A stretch of DNA of 49,334 bases, taken from positions 1-49,334 of the forward strand of contig JAUQOW010000004.1 of assembly GCA_030550675.1 (NCBI GenBank), written 5' to 3'. The DNA is from Chloroflexota bacterium (GTDB taxonomy: Bacteria; Chloroflexota; Chloroflexia; Chloroflexales; Roseiflexaceae). Position numbers and translations under genes: made by a program. This document shows, piece by piece, positions 14,401-24,249 of the stretch. The stretch's first letter is position 1. Each line of letters starts with the position of its first letter. The notes under the pieces were generated by a model that saw nothing but the letters and a program-made list of their open reading frames with translations, made no database searches and was not told where the DNA came from.

Positions 14401-14531
14401 CAGGCGCGGGAACATTCCTCCTGGCGAAGTTCTTTCGCCGAGAGGCGTTTATGGTATAGACCTCAAGGGTCTGGGACGTCTTCCGCCCTCCCGCCTGCAA
14501 CCTTCCCACCTTCTCACGTGCAATGTGCAAC

Positions 14532-14700
14532 GCTGCGAGACGTTGCGGGGCACTGCTGCGAGACGTTGCGGGGTAACGCTGCGAGACGTTGCGGGGCACT
14601 GCTGCGAGACGTTGCGGGGTAACGCTGCGAGACGTTGCGGGGCACTGCTGCGAGACGTTGCGGGGTAACGCTGCGAGACGTTGCCCTGCAACGTCTCTAC
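14532..14700. repeat. 23-bp alternating tandem array ending in a palindrome
   Basis: Seven units start at 14532, 14555, 14578, 14601, 14624, 14647 and 14670, each beginning GCTGCGAGACGTTGC. Units alternate strictly between endings GGGGCACT and GGGGTAAC, so the duplicating unit is 46 bp. The last unit turns into a hairpin, GAGACGTTGC-CCT-GCAACGTCTC. No spacers, so not a CRISPR. Confidence 0.85.
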
Positions 14701-16633: not shown

Positions 16634-16770
16634 AGGTTGAAGGTTGAAGGTTGAAGGTTAAGCGTTTACAATGGGCTGAAAGCGGTAAGGTTGAAAATTG
16701 GACAACGGCTCTCAGTTCTTGGTTCTTGGTTCTCAGTTCTTGGTTCTTGGTTCTCAGTTCTCAGTTCTTC
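16621..16770. repeat. GGTTGAAGG and TTCTTGGTTCTCAG microrepeats at converging gene ends
   Basis: Five GGTTGAA iterations (16621-16660) overlap the stop of the RraA-like gene. TTCTTGGTTCTCAG iterations (16712-16770) form the last coding part of the minus-strand gene that ends at 16666. The second word is the complement of the one at 10495-10535. Confidence 0.7.
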
Positions 16771-18198
16771 CCCCCACAACCGCATCTCGTTGAACGCCGC
16801 TCCCGCAATGCGTCCCCGCTCATCGAGGCGCGCCGATTTGCCGCTGACTTTCCACTCGCTGCTGAAGTTGCCAAGCCCGCCGATAAGATGTGGCGTCCCG
16901 CGCGCGTCGAACGTCGCGTAGACCATGAAGCGGGCATGCGCGTCGATAGAGTGCAACGCATGCGTCGCCCACGGCAGGCACATATCGACCCGATACGTCG
17001 CGTCCACGTACCGCTGGACGATCCACGGTTCGCCCTGCGCCAACCGTGACTTCACAAACGCGAGCGTCTTCTGCGCCGCACTGCGTGAGCCGTTGAGCCG
17101 CAGCACGCCGCGTCCCTGGCTGTAGTACGCGCCGCTGCCGCTCCCGCATTTCAGCACCAGTAATCGTCGGGCAGCCGTCGAGAGACCCGCAAGATCGTCG
17201 ATGGTTCGGACTGCATGCAACTGCTGTCCAATGACGTCCGGGACGCCATCAGCCAACACGCTGAGATCGACTTCTTCGCCGTGCAGCAATGCCACGGCGC
17301 CGAACAGCGCGCGCAGCCGGTCGTCGAAGAGACGGGCATAGTCTGGCATGAAGGGGAGCGCCATGCCCCATTTCTGGCGGTACACGTAGTTAAGCGGCGT
17401 CTCGATCCAGAGCCTGCCATCAACCGCGGCTCGCGCCAGGCGAACGATCATGGTTGGCGCAATCACCGGCAGGAGTTCCTGCGCATACAGGAAATCGATG
17501 GGCAACAACCTGCCTTTGTCGGCGACCATGAACCTGCCGTTGCGCTCGATAATCCGCCGCGCTCCCTCGCGCCGGTCGAAAACGATGTAGCGCATGCCCT
17601 GCCCATCGCAGGTGCGTCGCAGGTAGTGCTCGCCGCGATACCAGACGGACCGAACCGGATTGACCGCAACCGGGTCATTGCCGCTGCTCTGCCGGATCAT
17701 CTCACAGAAGGAATCCGCCAGATTGCCGGGACTCCCGGCAGTTGCAGGCACAACTGCCGCGTGAACATCGTGGATGCCCGCGAAAAGTCCCAGCCCGCCC
17801 GATTTCCATTGCACCTCAGCGACAATGCGTTGCGGACCGATTGCGACATAATCGACCCGACAGAAACGCGGCGTGAGACCCGCAGCAAGCGTTGTGCGCT
17901 GCGCCTGAATCTCTTCGGAGCAGAGACCATATTCACACAGCCTGGCGATCCAGCGCGGCGCCTCGCCAGCCAGCGACGCGCGGTACAGATTGTTCCAGGC
18001 GCGGTAGAAGCGCCAGAGCAGCGCAAGGTCGTCGGTGAGCGCCATGGTCGCGGCGTGATCGACCACGCACGAGGAGGGGGTGATCAGCGACGCATAGTTG
18101 TCGCCTGAGCCGTAGATCAGACCGCTGGCGGTCAGGGCGTTGGCAAGCTCGCCAGCCACCTGATCAGCGTGACGCGCAATTGTTATCGAACCCGTCAT
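16666..18198 (-). CDS. Unassigned protein, possibly ATP-grasp-like; last gene of the cupin/AsnB operon
   Basis: 510 residues. Middle and C-terminal motifs suggest an ATP-grasp-type nucleotide site: LVLKCGSGSGAYYSQGRGVL (a Lys followed by a glycine-rich loop), then EPWIVQRYVDATYRVDMCLP (hinge-like) and later GGLGNFSSEWKVSG. The upstream segment RYIVFDRREGARRIIERNG plus FLYAQELLP recalls circularly permuted ATP-grasp ligases. None of this is conclusive. The last 35 or so residues (ELRTENQEPRTENQEP...) are translation of a DNA microrepeat and probably not functional. A 153-bp gap with a strong hairpin separates it from the AsnB-like gene, so it may be expressed at a lower level or on its own. 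Confidence 0.6.
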   Translation of the reverse strand: MTGSITIARHADQVAGELANALTASGLIYGSGDNYASLITPSSCVVDHAATMALTDDLALLWRFYRAWNNLYRASLAGEAPRWIARLCEYGLCSEEIQAQRTTLAAGLTPRFCRVDYVAIGPQRIVAEVQWKSGGLGLFAGIHDVHAAVVPATAGSPGNLADSFCEMIRQSSGNDPVAVNPVRSVWYRGEHYLRRTCDGQGMRYIVFDRREGARRIIERNGRFMVADKGRLLPIDFLYAQELLPVIAPTMIVRLARAAVDGRLWIETPLNYVYRQKWGMALPFMPDYARLFDDRLRALFGAVALLHGEEVDLSVLADGVPDVIGQQLHAVRTIDDLAGLSTAARRLLVLKCGSGSGAYYSQGRGVLRLNGSRSAAQKTLAFVKSRLAQGEPWIVQRYVDATYRVDMCLPWATHALHSIDAHARFMVYATFDARGTPHLIGGLGNFSSEWKVSGKSARLDERGRIAGAAFNEMRLWGEELRTENQEPRTENQEPRTESRCPIFNLTAFSPL

Positions 18199-18264
18199 CG
18201 ATTACGTCTGGCGCAGTAGTCGGAGAAGAGCGACAGCGTCGCACGAAAAGATTGACGCAAAGAC

Positions 18265-18312
18265 GCAAAGGCGCAAAGTTGCGCAACCTGCAGAAACACT
18301 TTGCGCCTTTGC
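18265..18312. terminator. 14-bp perfect hairpin between the AsnB-like gene and the ATP-grasp-like gene
   Basis: GCAAAGGCGCAAAG (18265-18278) is the exact complement of CTTTGCGCCTTTGC (18299-18312), with a 20-nt loop. It belongs to the widespread GACGCAAAGACGCAAAGGCGC repeat type. No T tract on either strand, so it is either a transcript-stabilising or attenuating hairpin or simply a repeat. Confidence 0.5.
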
Positions 18313-18351
18313 CTCAGCCTTTCTGAGCGGCGCTCCGGGCATGAGTCTTCG

Positions 18352-20082
18352 CTACAGATTGAACGCGCGCAGCCACAGTTCCAGCGTGATCAGCAGCCAG
18401 ATGAATTGCCCGTGGCGCCGCCAGACGAGACCGCGGTAGCGCATCCAGTCGCGCACTACATGTTCGCGGAACAGACCGCGCGCCCGCGCCTGCGGTCCCA
18501 GCAGCAGATCGTTCGCCAGATCGCGCAGCGGACCGTGCAGCCAGTACTGCACCGGCATGAGCATGCCGCTCTTTGGACGGTGCAGAATGGTTGGCGGCAG
18601 CAGGTCGCGCACCGCCTGTTTCAGCACCCATTTTTCCTGCAAACCGCGCAGTTTGAGCGCAGGGGGCACGGCAAACGCAGCATCGACCAGCGGGAACGCG
18701 AAGAGCGGCGAACGTCCTTCGACGCCGCTCGCAGCCGTCATCCGTTCGACCTTCGGCAGAATATGGTGCGCGCCCTTGGTGCGCAGGTTGGTGTACAGCA
18801 GACGATTCAGAAACGAGGTCATGCGCGGCGATTCGAGGTATGGCTGCACGTGGCGCTCCAGCGGCGGCGCGTCGCGCAACGCATTGAGCACGTCGGCAGT
18901 GAGCAGGAGATCAAGCTGGTCGTAGCATTTCTGGTATGAGTGCAAATAGGCGCTGGCGCGCGCCGCCGGGTTCGGGTCGTCGCGGTGGAACTCGAAGGCG
19001 AGCATCGGCTGGTTCTTGGGACCGCCAAACACCGGGTCGCCGCCCTCGCCGTTCAGAATGACCGACAGACCATCACGCGCCGCGGCGCGCGCCAGGAGCA
19101 GGTTCGGCGTCGTCAACGGGTCACCAACCGGGCAATCGAGCAGCGCCACGGTCTCTGCCAGATGATCGGCAATGGTTTTCCCGTCGAACGTCAGCACCGT
19201 ATGCTCCGTACCGCAGTGCGCGGCGACCAGCCCGGAATACGCCAGCTCATTGGGGAATTCTTTACCGAAGTTGATCGCATACGTGCGCACGGGTTGGTTG
19301 TGCAGCCGTGCTGCCAGGGCAGTGACCAGGCTGCTGTCGATGCCGCCAGAGAGAAAGACGCCGACCGGTTGTCCGGCGGGTAGACGCGTGGCAACTGCCT
19401 GTTCGAGCAGATCGCGCAAACGACGGGCGTACGTTTCCGCCGGAAGCGTGTCGTCCCACTCACCTTCGCGCGGTTCCCAGAACATCTCTTCGTGGCAGGC
19501 GCCGTTAGCGCACAAACGGAGACAGCGCCCAGGCAGCATCTCGAACACGCCATCGATCAACGTCTCGTTCCCTGGCAGGTAGGCGAACGTCAGGAAGGCG
19601 CGCACGGCGTTCAGATTGAGGCGCGCATTCAAACGGGGCCAGGCGCGCAGCGCGCGCAGCGACGCCGACGCTGCCCAGTGGTCGCCAGCGCGCGCGTAAA
19701 AGAGCGTGCGCGTCCCGACGTGATCGCGCACCAGCACCAGGTCGTCCCCGTCGAGGATGGCGAGCGCAAACATGCCATCAGCGGCGGCGAAGCCGCGCGC
19801 GCCATGCCGGGCATACAGGTGCAGCAGGATCGCACCGTCGGCGCAATCGTCCGGCAGGGCGACGCCATCGCGCCTCAGCGCTTCAAGAAGTTCCCCGCGA
19901 TTGAACAGCGACACAGCGCCGACTGCAACCAGATGATTGGCGGTGAAGACGCGCGTATGGCATCCGTCAGGGAGCGCGCCGAGCGCCGCGCGATGCCTGG
20001 ACGCGACAGGCGCTGCGCCCATTGCCGCGAGATCGCATTCCGCTTCATCAGTGGTTAGCGCTGCACACAACCAGCCACTCAT
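18352..20082 (-). CDS. Asparagine-synthetase-like amidotransferase/ligase lacking the glutaminase Cys
   Basis: 576 residues with the two-domain plan of glutamine-hydrolysing asparagine synthetases. The N-terminal Ntn-hydrolase-like domain keeps LFNRGELLEAL, ADGMFALAILDGDDLVLVRD and GTRTLFYA, but the protein begins MSGWLC: the catalytic Cys2 of MCG-type enzymes is absent. The synthetase domain has the PP-loop VGVFLSGGIDSSLVTALAA (SGGIDSS at 245-251) and NGEGGDPVFGG, where usual enzymes have D-E instead of D-P. It should adenylate a carboxylate, using ammonia or another amine rather than glutamine, as in beta-lactam synthetase or lasso-peptide cyclases. Its ATG overlaps the preceding stop by 4 nt. 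Confidence 0.85.
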   Translation of the reverse strand: MSGWLCAALTTDEAECDLAAMGAAPVASRHRAALGALPDGCHTRVFTANHLVAVGAVSLFNRGELLEALRRDGVALPDDCADGAILLHLYARHGARGFAAADGMFALAILDGDDLVLVRDHVGTRTLFYARAGDHWAASASLRALRAWPRLNARLNLNAVRAFLTFAYLPGNETLIDGVFEMLPGRCLRLCANGACHEEMFWEPREGEWDDTLPAETYARRLRDLLEQAVATRLPAGQPVGVFLSGGIDSSLVTALAARLHNQPVRTYAINFGKEFPNELAYSGLVAAHCGTEHTVLTFDGKTIADHLAETVALLDCPVGDPLTTPNLLLARAAARDGLSVILNGEGGDPVFGGPKNQPMLAFEFHRDDPNPAARASAYLHSYQKCYDQLDLLLTADVLNALRDAPPLERHVQPYLESPRMTSFLNRLLYTNLRTKGAHHILPKVERMTAASGVEGRSPLFAFPLVDAAFAVPPALKLRGLQEKWVLKQAVRDLLPPTILHRPKSGMLMPVQYWLHGPLRDLANDLLLGPQARARGLFREHVVRDWMRYRGLVWRRHGQFIWLLITLELWLRAFNL

Positions 20083-20687
20083 CCGAAATCCCCCACATCG
20101 CCAAAGTCGCCGCCGTCGAACGGCGACTCGCCGTCGCTCCAGTCACCGTTGTCGGATGGCGCCCCCTCGCCGACCGGTTCGGGCTGATCCCAATCGCTAT
20201 CGCTGTAGCTGCTACTGCTGCTGTCCCAGTCCGAGCCGCCTCCCCATCCTCCGCTGCCGCTGGTTTGCTGCTGCTGTTGTTGCAGCAACTTCTGGCGCAG
20301 CAGTTCTTCCTCTTCAGGGCTGAGATACTCCGGCGGCAGCACCAGCGAACCGAGCAGAAACCCCGCGCCCATGCCCATCAGGATCGCGCCGACCCGTCCG
20401 CCAAAAGATGTCTGGTTGACGGTCAACACCTGCCCGCGATGCCAGAGGGTGCGGCCATACCCCTGTTCGCGCGCATAGATGACCCGTCCCTGATTGAAGG
20501 TGCGTTTGAGGATCCCGTCGCCGAGCAGTTCATCGATTCCGGCAAACCCCTGGTTATCGCGCCACTCGACCCGACCATCCGGCAGGCGACGCCGCCATTC
20601 GTACCGTCCGTCGCTGAAGGCGCGACGAACGCTGCCATCGGCGAGCAGCTCGTCCTGATATGTGATCACGTTTGGTTGTTGTTGCAC
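20079..20687 (-). CDS. Membrane-anchored protein with Trp/Asp/Gly/Ser-rich tail
   Basis: 202 residues in three parts. Residues about 1-90 hold repeated short beta-hairpin-like units (LADGSVRRAFSDGRYEWRRR, then LPDGRVEWRD and GDGILKRTFNQGRVIYA), reminiscent of MORN/YD-type repeats. Next comes one glycine-zipper-like membrane helix (VGAILMGMGAGFLLGSLVLP). A short charged coil (LSPEEEELLRQKLLQQQQQQ) is followed by a disordered tail of G, S, D and W ending GDFGDVGDFG. No known family. Middle gene of the operon, 15 bp after the preceding paralogue and overlapping the AsnB-like start, so its product probably works with them. The tail could be a modification substrate or scaffold; that is speculation. 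Confidence 0.7.
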   Translation of the reverse strand: MQQQPNVITYQDELLADGSVRRAFSDGRYEWRRRLPDGRVEWRDNQGFAGIDELLGDGILKRTFNQGRVIYAREQGYGRTLWHRGQVLTVNQTSFGGRVGAILMGMGAGFLLGSLVLPPEYLSPEEEELLRQKLLQQQQQQTSGSGGWGGGSDWDSSSSSYSDSDWDQPEPVGEGAPSDNGDWSDGESPFDGGDFGDVGDFG

Positions 20688-20702
20688 AGACGCTTCTCCT
20701 CC

Positions 20703-21662
20703 TCATTCGGGCCAGCTCATATAACTGATGGTGCGCCATCGGCGCAGACTGGAAAACCAGGATTCGCGGCGTCGCGCCGGTCGGACGACGCGATGGAGCG
20801 TGCGCAGCAGCGTCACCGGGCGCAGCGCAGCGACTTCGGCGCGATAGCCGGTGCGCAGCCAGGCGCGTTCGATCAGGTTCAGCGATACAGGAAGATCTTC
20901 CAGAGGCTCAGAGCGGCGGACGGCGAACAGGTGGCGACGCAATGCGTGCATTGGCGTCAATCCTAACGCCCTCACCCGGAAGCCGCGCGGCAGATCGAGC
21001 AACGCTGCGGCGTCGGCGGCAAAGCGCAACCCCTCCGGGCTGGCATCGTGCAGCAGCAAAATACGTGGAACCGGAGCGCGCATCAACATCGCAATCAGCG
21101 CATCCGGCAGCGGCGACGCTTCTTCCAGCGCCAGGATTGCGCAGGACATTTCCATGTGCAGAAAGTTCGCGCGCAGCATCCGCGCAATCGATGTGTCCTG
21201 ACAGATAAGCGCATATGCCAACCCATAGTCGTAGAGGTCTGGCTCGCGATCATCGAGCGCCAGAAAGGGCGGTACGTCGTCGGAAAGCAAACCCGGAGGG
21301 TCGCCGTGACGCGCGCGATATGCGGCAAGCGCGTCGTCGAACGCGGTTTCCGTCAGCGGCGGCGTAAGCGTGAAGGGCAGCCGCCATACGAGCGACGGAA
21401 CGCTCATCAGCAGCGATGCGCTCATCGTTCCGATCCAGAGCGGATGCGGACGCCGCAGTGCAAGGGTCAGCGACGAGCCGACGGCAGCGGTTGTCTGGCT
21501 GGCGGCGTCAGGGATGCGTGATGGCGGCAGCAGGGTGCGGCAGACTTCGTAGTAGAGCTGGCGGCGGGTGTAGCGCACCCCGCCCATCCCCGCGTGCGCA
21601 ATGCTGCGCTCCAATGCGGTATCGAGATTGCTATGGCGCATTCGCGTGCCGAATACCATCAT
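20703..21662 (-). CDS. Paralogue of the upstream zinc-ribbon membrane protein (HDAS motif, no zinc ribbon)
   Basis: 319 residues. VRYTRRQLYYEVCRTLL near the N-terminus aligns with YRYTPAQLAYFVFRREL of the neighbour. VPRILLLHDASPEGLRF aligns with LPLLLIHDASVAGCL, VRALGLTPMHALRR with VIDLGLRPRHV, and both proteins end with the same M-S/T-W-P motif. One or two hydrophobic segments (about residues 75-95) may be membrane-embedded. The strand-HDAS-x-x-G unit recalls Toprim or Rossmann-like cores, but I cannot confirm this. Start ATG 21662 overlaps the upstream TGA, with GGAG before it; a longer in-frame extension is a shadow of the neighbour. Function unknown. Confidence 0.75.
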   Translation of the reverse strand: MMVFGTRMRHSNLDTALERSIAHAGMGGVRYTRRQLYYEVCRTLLPPSRIPDAASQTTAAVGSSLTLALRRPHPLWIGTMSASLLMSVPSLVWRLPFTLTPPLTETAFDDALAAYRARHGDPPGLLSDDVPPFLALDDREPDLYDYGLAYALICQDTSIARMLRANFLHMEMSCAILALEEASPLPDALIAMLMRAPVPRILLLHDASPEGLRFAADAAALLDLPRGFRVRALGLTPMHALRRHLFAVRRSEPLEDLPVSLNLIERAWLRTGYRAEVAALRPVTLLRTLHRVVRPARRRESWFSSLRRWRTISYMSWPE

Positions 21663-22840
21663 GCCGCTCCTTGTCGCTGGGGCCAGGTCATGAACCCGAT
21701 GGCGCGCGCCTCCGCCTGCGCCCGCGCCTCCGGGTCCACAGGCGCAGACGCGCGTTGTGCAGCGGCAACCGGTGTGGACGTCAGCCGCTCCACGGCGCTG
21801 GTCACAACATTGACCAGTCGGGCTGGGGGAATGAAGAGCGCTGAGGTCACAAAACCCTGGCGCAGCCACTCAAGCTCTTCCTTCTCCAGGGTCAATCCTC
21901 CCGGCGCCTTGACCCGACGTTCGAGAAGATCCATCAATTCTTGCGGCGTCTCCTCGCGTTTCCACGGCAAACGCTGCTGCTTCACATGGCGCGGACGCAG
22001 TCCCAGGTCGATCACGCGATGGTTCGGCGACAACCCCCATTTGCCCGGCAGCAGCGCTGGCAGCAGACACCCGGCCACGCTGGCGTCGTGGATCAGCAGC
22101 AGCGGCAGGCGCGGATTCTGGCGTAACAGCGCCAGAATGTGTTCATCATCGGCGGAAAATGGTCCGTCGATAGAGAGCAGCGCCAGACCCAGGCGCTGCG
22201 GCAGTCCATTCGCCCGCAGGCAGTCGAGCACATCGGCGACCGGCGAGGCGAGCACGGCGCGCACCCGCGACGGCGGCGACTGAACCTGACGCAGCGCAGC
22301 AATCTTCTGATAAGCGACCCATCCAGGCAGCGGTCCATGCACGCTCGCCCAGGGAGCGACATATGTTGTCTCAAAAGACTCTATCACCGGCAGAAGACGC
22401 TGGTACGGATTGGATGACTTAACTGACCGATAATAGAGTCCCGCTGCTATCAACCCTATCACAGCGCCGATCACGAGCGCTATCATCGCAGAAGCGAGCG
22501 AGCGTTCCTGCACAAAGAAAAGCAGCATACATGCGAGAGCAGTCAAGAAAACGAAACCGAAGATGATCGCAGCGACCACCGCCGACGGTTCAGACCACGA
22601 ATATGATGTCTTATAGATGGACGCGAGTTCGCGTCGGAATACGAAGTACGCCAGTTGCGCCGGGGTGTAGCGATACGTTCCCTGATTGCTCAAACGTTCA
22701 GCGAGACCGCGCAGCCGCAGGTCGCTCATCTTCAGCGTGTTTTCGCGCGGCTCAAGGGCGAACGGCTTCTGGCACTGCGGGCACTTTTTATCGCGGCGCT
22801 CACGGTATTTCAGTTCAAAAAGGCAATGCGGGCATTTCAT
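21659..22840 (-). CDS. Zinc-ribbon membrane protein with HDAS motif
   Basis: 393 residues. It opens with a four-cysteine zinc ribbon (MKCPHC...KKCPQCQKPF), then LRGLAERLSNQGTYRYTPAQ with LAYFVFRREL, two membrane helices (VVAAIIFGFVFLTALACMLL and MIALVIGAVIGLIAAGLYY), and a cytoplasmic C-terminal domain with LPLLLIHDASVAGCLLPALL and EELEWLRQGFVTSALFIPP. It ends IGFMTWPQRQGAA. The following gene encodes a paralogue sharing all blocks except the ribbon. ATG 22838-22840 abuts the stop of the cupin gene. The family seems uncharacterised; the ribbon and helices suggest a membrane-associated scaffold or regulator. Confidence 0.78.
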   Translation of the reverse strand: MKCPHCLFELKYRERRDKKCPQCQKPFALEPRENTLKMSDLRLRGLAERLSNQGTYRYTPAQLAYFVFRRELASIYKTSYSWSEPSAVVAAIIFGFVFLTALACMLLFFVQERSLASAMIALVIGAVIGLIAAGLYYRSVKSSNPYQRLLPVIESFETTYVAPWASVHGPLPGWVAYQKIAALRQVQSPPSRVRAVLASPVADVLDCLRANGLPQRLGLALLSIDGPFSADDEHILALLRQNPRLPLLLIHDASVAGCLLPALLPGKWGLSPNHRVIDLGLRPRHVKQQRLPWKREETPQELMDLLERRVKAPGGLTLEKEELEWLRQGFVTSALFIPPARLVNVVTSAVERLTSTPVAAAQRASAPVDPEARAQAEARAIGFMTWPQRQGAA

Positions 22841-23527
22841 TCAGGCGCCTCCCTCCAGCACGCCTGCGAGTCGCCGCAGCAGCATCGCCAGGCGCTCGCG
22901 CAGCGACACTTCGACGTGGACTCGATCAACCGCCATTTCCGCTTCGAGCTGCCGTAGCGCTGTCACTAAACGCGCTGCCGCCTCATCGCCGCTGCGCGCC
23001 CGTTCCTCTGCCATCGCCGCCGTGATCGCGTAGTCGTCGTGGTCGATGCCCATGCCGGTGTTGGCGATGACCAGCGGCAGCGGGTCGTCGGCGCGGTTGT
23101 TGAACGAGTGCGGCATCAGCGCCGGAATGTGGAGCAGCGAGCCGGGAATCAGCCGCACATGAGCGACTGCTTCGCGCTCGTGATCGTACAACCCGCACGA
23201 CGCATACCCCATGCTCAGCACAAAGTGCTCCGCGCCATGGGCATGCGGCGTAAAGGCGCTGTGCGGGCGAACGAATCCGAGTTTATACGTGGCGTTTGCC
23301 GGGTTTTCGTCCGAGGTTTTGGCGGAGCCGATCAGGTACTGCGTGTACTGCCCGCTATCAATGAACCGCAACATATTGGCGCGATCCGCTGCGCGCCGGG
23401 TCGGATCCAGGCGACGGATGCAGTCCTTGCTCACAGCGTAGACGATCCCATCGGGGCTGAAAACATACAGGGTTGCACCGCGTGGAAGGGTGATTCTGAG
23501 GCGCTCGAGATATCTGGCACGATGCAT
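22841..23527 (-). CDS. Cupin-domain protein, first gene of the operon
   Basis: 228 residues. The cupin core is visible: motif 1 FTPHAHGAEHFVLSMG supplies two His and one Glu for a metal, and motif 2 IPGSLLHIPALMPHSFNN supplies the last His. An N-terminal extension of about 80 residues (LRITLPRGATLYVFSPDGIV) and a C-terminal helical segment of about 55 residues rich in Arg and Glu flank it. It could be a small-molecule-binding or dioxygenase-type protein; the metal ligands look intact. Its stop directly precedes the next ATG, so it leads the operon. It is divergent from the yefM/yoeB module with 148 bp between start codons. Confidence 0.8.
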   Translation of the reverse strand: MHRARYLERLRITLPRGATLYVFSPDGIVYAVSKDCIRRLDPTRRAADRANMLRFIDSGQYTQYLIGSAKTSDENPANATYKLGFVRPHSAFTPHAHGAEHFVLSMGYASCGLYDHEREAVAHVRLIPGSLLHIPALMPHSFNNRADDPLPLVIANTGMGIDHDDYAITAAMAEERARSGDEAAARLVTALRQLEAEMAVDRVHVEVSLRERLAMLLRRLAGVLEGGA

Positions 23528-23675: not shown

Positions 23676-23963
23676 ATGCCTGTTCAGACGACCTACACGC
23701 AGGCGCGCGCTCGACTGGCGGCGTTGCTCGACGAAGTGGTCAACAACCGTGATATTGTCATCATTCAGCGTCGTGGCGGCGAGGATGTCGCTTTGATTGC
23801 CGCCGACGAATTGCAGAGCCTGCTTGAAACAGTGCATCTGCTCCGTTCGCCAGCCAATGCAGAGCGCTTGCTCGCAGCGCTTGCGCGGGCGCGGCAGCGC
23901 AGCGGAACGCCGCAATCTGTCGATGATCTGCGCCGTGAGGTAGGGCTTGCCGAGAACGAGTAA
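23676..23963 (+). CDS. yefM: YefM/Phd-family antitoxin
   Basis: A 95-residue antitoxin that binds and neutralises the downstream toxin and represses its own operon. TYTQARARLAALLDEVVNNR and VIIQRRGGEDVALIAADELQ are the classical YefM N-terminal DNA-binding fold, followed by SLLETVHLLRSPANAERLL, the toxin-binding part. ATG 23676 is chosen over earlier in-frame codons because AGGAG precedes it, and because the promoter and operator occupy the DNA just upstream. The toxin gene starts 34 bp after its stop. Confidence 0.92.
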   Translation: MPVQTTYTQARARLAALLDEVVNNRDIVIIQRRGGEDVALIAADELQSLLETVHLLRSPANAERLLAALARARQRSGTPQSVDDLRREVGLAENE

Positions 23964-23997
23964 GAATCTCCCAACCCAGGGAACCCAACGGGACGCT

Positions 23998-24249
23998 GTG
24001 TTTCAACCAGAGTTTCGTGATGATCTGCGCTACTGGGTTGAGAAGGACAGGCGAACCGCATTGCGCATCCTGACATTGATCGAAGCCGTTCTACGCGATC
24101 CTTTCACCGGTATTGGCAAGCCGGAACCCCTCAAGTATCTGGGTGCGGATGTATGGTCACGGCGAATCACGCAGGAACATCGTCTTGTATATGTCGTCAG
24201 CGACGACCGCATCGATTTTCTTCAAGCGCGCTACCACTACACTGATTGA
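23998..24249 (+). CDS. yoeB: YoeB/Txe-family ribosome-dependent mRNA interferase toxin
   Basis: An 83-residue RelE-superfamily toxin, normal YoeB length. It starts at GTG (VFQPEFRDDLRYWVEKDRR), contains GKPEPLKYLGADVWSRRITQ followed by EHRLVYVV, and ends ARYHYTD. The Glu of GKPEPLK, the Arg-rich SRRI loop and the terminal His-Tyr are the residues used for catalysis in YoeB. A longer reading from 23947 would overlap the antitoxin and add residues the family lacks. The pair is complete and looks functional. Confidence 0.92.
   Translation: MFQPEFRDDLRYWVEKDRRTALRILTLIEAVLRDPFTGIGKPEPLKYLGADVWSRRITQEHRLVYVVSDDRIDFLQARYHYTD

Follow-up and report, generated by a model that had tools for sequence, protein, structure and literature searches.

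Beta-lactam synthetase and lasso peptide cyclase, two relatives of asparagine synthetase (AS) that have lost the glutaminase, close rings within a small molecule or a short peptide. In pupylation, Pup ends in GG[E/Q] and its ligase PafA has a glutamine-synthetase fold. The AS-like enzymes TsrC, ScdTA and PesC of ribosomally synthesized and post-translationally modified peptide (RiPP) pathways have the C-terminal carboxylate of a ribosomal peptide as their target, which PesC adenylates (PMC13060819). Here we describe a conserved five-gene operon, CUP-ZNR-PAR-TAIL-ASNB, carried by a 49,334-nucleotide stretch of a Chloroflexota bacterium of the Roseiflexaceae (assembly GCA_030550675.1, contig JAUQOW010000004.1, positions 1 to 49,334; hereafter the window), in which the gene of a glutaminase-dead AS-like ligase, ASNB, adjoins that of TAIL, a predicted membrane-associated protein with an invariant C-terminal Gly. 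We propose, tentatively and with a confidence just short of evenly balanced, that the five genes form a protein-modification system in which ASNB would activate this C-terminal Gly and join it to an amine.

An original prediction, made from the letters of the window alone, had placed six minus-strand open reading frames (ORFs) at 16666-23527; all six were found there, and the tight coupling described for the first five was confirmed, ZNR abutting CUP, PAR overlapping ZNR by 4 nt, TAIL following after a gap of 15 bp and ASNB overlapping TAIL by 4 nt (ATGA). That prediction had also named the recurrent co-occurrence of at least three genes as the mark of a system, and the five genes do recur together with their order kept, both in Chloroflexota and in Actinomycetota (Streptomyces, Dactylosporangium, Virgisporangium); in a Verrucomicrobiota metagenome-assembled genome (MAG) the order is ZNR-PAR-TAIL-ASNB, with no CUP match. 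When flanking DNA was read, the five-gene order was seen in the window's genus, in Chloroflexus-like genomes and in divergent genomes whose ZNR identity is near 30%. Protein identity among the loci with this order, across three phyla, is 30-60%, and the keeping of gene order at such distances rules out chance clustering: the five-gene operon is real and conserved. TAIL and ASNB adjoin in almost all intact loci.

Of 150 genomes in the class, 26 contain ZNR; TAIL is present in 13 genomes of a 350-genome sample of the phylum, as well as in 15 of the 247 genomes in the genus of Streptomyces acidicola. A TAIL profile search retrieved 29 loci in named genomes (Roseiflexus, Chloroflexus, other Chloroflexota, Streptomyces, Dactylosporangium, Virgisporangium and one Verrucomicrobiota MAG). 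All sampled actinobacterial ASNB copies form one fully supported clade amid chloroflexotal copies, a nesting which suggests that the operon moved between phyla. The one plasmid-type record with TAIL is a 1.6-Mb Streptomyces replicon; no TAIL match was found in phages, which argues against a phage origin of the operon, and the absence of any PADLOC model match for all six proteins argues against a known anti-phage defence system. The two most divergent loci (L070 and L071) keep ZNR-TAIL-ASNB, and a second AsnB-like gene replaces PAR and CUP. This second gene (L070:6840-8519, L071:71-1816), itself divergent and lacking an N-terminal Cys, lies ahead of ZNR-TAIL-ASNB, and in L070 a signal peptidase I gene stands just upstream of it.

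The strongest new fact of the analysis is the invariant end of TAIL, a feature absent from the original prediction, as is the Toprim domain of ZNR and PAR described below. In the C-terminal alignment Gly is the last residue of all 48 TAILs, preceded by Phe in 47 and by Asp-Phe in 45. The tail upstream contains 1.3% Phe and 22% Gly, and its positions are variable (entropy about 1.5 to 3.5 bits). Single-linkage clustering at 65% identity divides the 48 copies into 8 groups, each with the (D)FG-type ending. It is no by-product of the ATGA overlap between TAIL and ASNB, since DFG stays invariant at those actinobacterial loci, the majority, where the ASNB start lies about 10-110 bp beyond the TAIL stop, and since the Phe, Gly and stop codons vary among loci. 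The rest of the protein comprises a conserved, beta-repeat-like region of ~95 N-terminal residues, a hydrophobic segment (46 of the 48 TAILs; missing from the Verrucomicrobiota copy, L099) and a low-complexity acidic tail of varying length. Pfam Tcp10_C matches the N-domain weakly in 12 of 20 members (E up to 1, best 9.3e-6); a weak match to the CPAP G-box has E 0.017. With Tcp10_C the window copy scores 13.5 bits, below the Pfam cut-off of 36, and, unlike the CPAP/Tcp10_C G-box, TAIL is bacterial and continues into a hydrophobic segment and an acidic tail. In setting a disordered small-protein region with an invariant C-terminal motif beside a carboxylate-amine ligase, the operon resembles pupylation; it departs from it in its AS-like ligase, its (D)FG end, a carrier predicted to be membrane-associated and the lack of linked proteasome genes, and does not qualify as Pup-type.

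ASNB belongs to the Asn_synthase family (Table 1). None of its members starts with Met-Cys, the mark of an AsnB glutaminase (N-termini are MSGW, MPRF, MARF, VPRI and others), and no Cys is conserved, in agreement with the AsnB-like ligase without a glutaminase Cys that had been predicted. The AsnB-type ATP/pyrophosphate (PPi) loop SGGxDSS and acidic loop GEGGD are invariant in all sequences, as is the Lys equivalent to beta-lactam synthetase K443 in an alignment to 1jgt. In the register of an alignment to 1ct9, Pro-Pro (P350, P355) occupies the place of E. coli AsnB Glu352-Tyr357 in 36/36 ASNBs. A Glu-Tyr dyad with the same spacing is reported to be common to E. coli AS, PesC, TsrC, ScdTA and AsnO, and to be probably important for carboxylate adenylation (PMC13060819); by our mapping, the PesC residues E363/Y368 would correspond to AsnB E352/Y357. 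Because the glutaminase Cys is missing, the adenylation residues are invariant and the dyad is apparently replaced by Pro-Pro, ASNB looks like an adenylating ligase that would use an amine other than glutamine-derived ammonia and possess an unusual acyl pocket. Its best match in the PDB is 7ylz, annotated as a hydroxyamidotransferase, followed by 1jgt, beta-lactam synthetase, which is also devoid of the glutaminase Cys. ASNB parallels beta-lactam synthetase and lasso peptide cyclase in having lost the glutaminase while keeping the adenylation domain and a catalytic-type Lys, and an amine nucleophile is expected in place of glutamine-derived ammonia; it differs from them in that the operon has no evident ring partner. 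Nor does the locus resemble a lasso cluster: ASNB reaches 132 bits with NF033535, the model for lasso cyclases, whose cut-off is 525, and Pfam and NCBIfam identify no lasso protease/RiPP recognition element (B1/B2) or short precursor among the six genes.

ZNR and PAR are homologous over 268 columns of a profile alignment (hhalign, E 2.5e-38), so that the paralogy proposed in the original prediction holds, and so does its zinc ribbon in ZNR, with C3, C6, C20 and C23 invariant and zinc ribbon families matching. Hydropathy predicts two transmembrane segments in ZNR (aa 92-110 and 115-133), one in TAIL and none clearly in the window copy of PAR. An HDAS motif of ZNR was counted in the alignment of members, and GFM[ST]WP occurs at or near the C-terminus of both proteins. 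The AlphaFold (AF2) model of PAR (pLDDT 81.5) matched the Topo VI-A chain 1d3y_B (VIA Z 10.6, 162 residues, 4.2 A), and other Topo VI-A, JetD and Spo11 chains were among its top ten structure matches (Z 7-10); Pfam TOP6A-Spo11_Toprim was matched by 2 ZNR members (best 3.6e-4). ZNR and PAR are thus predicted to carry a degenerate Toprim domain of the Topo VI-A/Spo11 type. PAR further shares with these proteins an N-terminal RQLYY motif that resembles the region of the DNA-cleaving Tyr, but the catalytic set of Glu, DxD and nucleophilic Tyr is incomplete: in a register set by motif rather than by residue-level structural alignment, the putative catalytic Glu is Gln (Q155) in 30/32 members, the putative DxD reads D206-x-S208, with S/G at the second Asp in 29/32, and Tyr38 is Phe in two. 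With Gln for Glu and DxS for DxD, nuclease activity of ZNR/PAR appears unlikely. ZNR differs additionally in its predicted membrane insertion and zinc ribbon.

The simplest reading of a protein with an invariant free C-terminus next to a glutaminase-dead adenylating ligase is that of a ribosomal substrate beside its enzyme, an arrangement that recalls TsrC, ScdTA and PesC, where a gene of the Asn_synthase family likewise adjoins that of the ribosomal substrate. We infer that TAIL, with its beta-repeat-like domain, membrane-associating segment, flexible acidic tail and Phe-Gly end, would serve as a ribosomally made carrier and its terminal carboxylate as the reacting group: ASNB would adenylate the terminal Gly carboxylate using ATP and pass the acyl group to an amine, yielding an amide- or isopeptide-linked TAIL. 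ZNR and PAR may provide a membrane platform, or act as acceptor or adaptor, and CUP may be an auxiliary metal-dependent or sensing component. The acceptor may be an amine on a protein or a small amine; an aminobutyraldehyde-dehydrogenase-like gene at actinobacterial loci hints at amine metabolism. To this extent the earlier suggestion of a small system for protein modification whose substrate is unusual finds support. A bolder version, in which a ubiquitin-like or Pup-like conjugation has arisen on the AS fold, with ASNB linking the Phe-Gly end covalently to amines on proteins or lipids and membrane-anchored pseudo-Toprim adaptors derived from Spo11/Topo VI-A organising the reaction, strikes us as unlikely, if conceivable.

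Several observations weigh against activation of the TAIL end by ASNB. In ASNB, Pro-Pro apparently takes the place of the Glu-Tyr dyad with which peptide-amidating AS-like enzymes are presumed to recognise the carboxylate of the peptide. The charges around the hydrophobic segment of the window TAIL (net +3 before, -3 after) suggest an N-in/C-out topology that would leave an inserted tail away from ATP, so that modification would have to precede membrane insertion. The TAIL of L065 ends in DSG, and the loci have no hydrolase, transporter or dedicated acceptor gene in common. Some loci, moreover, are partial or decayed: in G090, ZNR-PAR stands with no TAIL-ASNB alongside, and the loci of G084, G050 and the Chloroflexaceae MAG SM1_1_0 appear degraded. 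Finally, the invariant end could serve as a docking peptide rather than as the reacting group.

This last point underlies the best of the alternatives, which we regard as rather unlikely yet deserving of weight: DFG would bring ASNB, ZNR or PAR to a membrane scaffold, the substrate of ASNB would be a small-molecule acid or a polysaccharide, and CUP and the actinobacterial aldehyde dehydrogenase would belong to the same metabolite pathway. Genes of the cupin and ABALDH-like kinds typically encode metabolic enzymes, the ASNB relative 7ylz bears the annotation of a hydroxyamidotransferase, and ZNR and PAR likewise carry a conserved motif near the C-terminus. However, an absolute terminal Gly with nothing after it is not obviously needed for docking, and the metabolic partners come and go (the dehydrogenase is confined to actinobacteria, the cupin is absent from L070/L071), whereas TAIL is constant. 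Amidation is a somewhat more doubtful prospect. Here ASNB would use ammonia or a small amine to cap TAIL at its C-terminus and leave a finished C-terminal amide without conjugation, as for TsrC (thiostrepton) or for PesC (towards a nitrile). Amidation of peptide C-termini by AS-like enzymes is published, and PesC can use free ammonia (PMC13060819); the invariant TAIL end would fit. On the other hand, the lack of a glutaminase Cys in every ASNB copy makes glutamine an unlikely donor, the mapping of the amidating dyad puts Pro-Pro at its place in ASNB, and by Pfam and NCBIfam none of the six genes encodes a peptidase or exporter as expected of a RiPP cluster. TAIL also differs from the substrates of TsrC, ScdTA and PesC in being a membrane-associated candidate of ~200 aa, with no precursor cleavage or export genes in the operon. 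That ASNB is a pseudoenzyme in a purely structural membrane assembly, with CPAP-G-box-like TAIL domains polymerising, ZNR/PAR as anchors and no ligation, is improbable: the degenerate look of the ZNR/PAR Toprim domains, the weak likeness of TAIL to the G-box of a centrosomal scaffold protein and the mostly filamentous carriers (judged from host names) would suit it, but the full conservation of the ATP/PPi loop, acidic loop and Lys of ASNB is unlike that of a drifting pseudoenzyme.

Table 1. Genes, domains and motifs of the operon and of the adjoining ATPG gene in the window (aa, amino acids)
Feature	Position	Strand	Description and basis
CUP	22841..23527	-	228-aa cupin; putative metal ligands H95, H97, E100/H101 and H140 invariant (Cupin_2 matches, alignment)
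ZNR	21659..22840	-	393 aa; zinc ribbon, helical segment, two predicted transmembrane helices, predicted degenerate Toprim, C-terminal GFMTWP motif
Zinc ribbon CxxC...CxxC of ZNR, aa 3-23	22772..22834	-	kept in 34/34
GFMTWP motif at ZNR C-terminus, aa 382-387	21680..21697	-	W 31/34, P 33/34
PAR	20703..21662	-	319-aa ZNR paralogue without zinc ribbon (hhalign, AF2 model)
Predicted Topo VI-A/Spo11/JetD-type Toprim domain of PAR, aa 129-296	20775..21278	-	structure match of model and residue counts
SYMSWP motif at PAR C-terminus, aa 313-318	20709..20726	-	consensus GFM[ST]WP; residue counts
TAIL	20079..20687	-	202 aa, GTG start; N-domain of beta-repeat-like sequence, a single hydrophobic segment, then a disordered acidic tail (Gly/Ser/Asp/Trp) that ends in Asp-Phe-Gly
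Hydrophobic segment of TAIL, aa 99-117	20337..20393	-	one such segment in 46/48
C-terminal Asp-Phe-Gly of TAIL, aa 200-202	20082..20090	-	G 48/48, FG 47/48, DFG 45/48
ASNB	18352..20082	-	576-aa glutaminase-dead AS-like ligase; Pfam Asn_synthase 7e-81
ATP/PPi loop SGGIDSS of ASNB, aa 245-251	19330..19350	-	invariant in 38/38 except variable 4th residue
ASNB family signature GEGGDPVFGGPKN, aa 345-357	19012..19050	-	E346, D349 kept; P350, P355 replace E. coli AsnB E352, Y357; 36/36 at key positions
RPKSG of ASNB, aa 502-506	18565..18579	-	K504 equivalent to beta-lactam synthetase K443; Lys 38/38 (alignment to 1jgt)
Dispersed repeat (hairpin) between ASNB and ATPG	18199..18351	-	genome repeat count; absent in L051, L052, L033
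ATPG	16666..18198	-	510 aa, accessory; may be a divergent ATP-grasp of circularly permuted type; repeat-derived over the last ~34 aa

Among the remaining genes, CUP is a cupin: 20/20 members match Pfam Cupin_2 (best 3.5e-6; the window copy lies below the gathering score), and HAHG-EH and H140 are invariant in the alignment. At its place in the Verrucomicrobiota locus, a seemingly unrelated cupin-like protein was noticed by eye (L099:2168-2956). The sixth gene, ATPG, had been counted with the operon, but is an accessory of one Chloroflexota clade: its occurrences, all next to the operon, are in six genomes from the genus of the window and in G022 and G042, with a remnant in G050. Of the two carboxylate-activating-type enzymes originally predicted, ASNB stands, as an Asn_synthase-family protein with its adenylating residues, whereas ATPG remains a candidate ATP-grasp. 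ATPG has no Pfam or PDB profile match, its AF2 model has a pLDDT of 43, and its colinear match to CP_ATPgrasp is weak (hhalign score 27 versus at most 23 in 20 column shuffles, probability 3%). The final ~34 residues of ATPG were assigned to a repeat from an alignment; at window 16666-16770 this second repeat type, ELRTENQEPRTE in translation, lengthens the ATPG frame, and repeats like it are found at other sites of this genome and in related ones. Most actinobacterial copies have an aldehyde dehydrogenase gene in ATPG's place. It lies directly 3' of ASNB on the same strand and was seen in 22 loci, two of which (L104 and L144) are probably one contig counted twice; the family that fits it best, aminobutyraldehyde dehydrogenase, is matched below the cut-off, and L094:12449-13867 is an example.

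The hairpin noted before ATPG is present in the window, where 153 bp separate this gene from ASNB, but is not a conserved operon feature. The core 17-mer of the repeat has 464 copies in the genome (up to 2 mismatches) compared with 2 for a reversed control, and ATPG exactly abuts ASNB in the sister genomes L051, L052 and L033, so that the hairpin is probably a recent insertion; as a dispersed repeat missing in sister genomes, it is ruled out as a conserved regulatory element. The palindromic repeat itself lies at 18254-18315 (core GACGCAAAGGCGCAAAG) and is probably the source of a sub-threshold Rfam STnc320 match (30.9 bits, cut-off 50). Elsewhere in the window, a plus-strand gene pair at 23677-24249, divergent from the operon, reads by eye in translation like a YefM-type antitoxin and a YoeB-type toxin, and a short GC-rich tandem repeat at ~14500-14700 appears as repeated segments in several overlapping ORFs.

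The component folds are known, and the gene set appears to match no known kind of system; searches of Pfam, NCBIfam, PADLOC and open-access papers turned up no system like it, an earlier description in the subscription literature being possible. The operon gives a shared context to many 'hypothetical proteins' from the five-gene set. Even if its chemistry proves to be another, it would constitute a five-gene, three-phylum system undescribed in the sources searched, marked by a terminal motif that does not vary and by membrane proteins related to Spo11. If ASNB does activate the C-terminus of TAIL, proteins would be tagged by a new chemical route that is neither that of ubiquitin E1 enzymes nor that of the Pup ligase, and the presence of the operon in culturable Streptomyces, for example S. 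scopuliridis (L103), makes the tagging idea testable.

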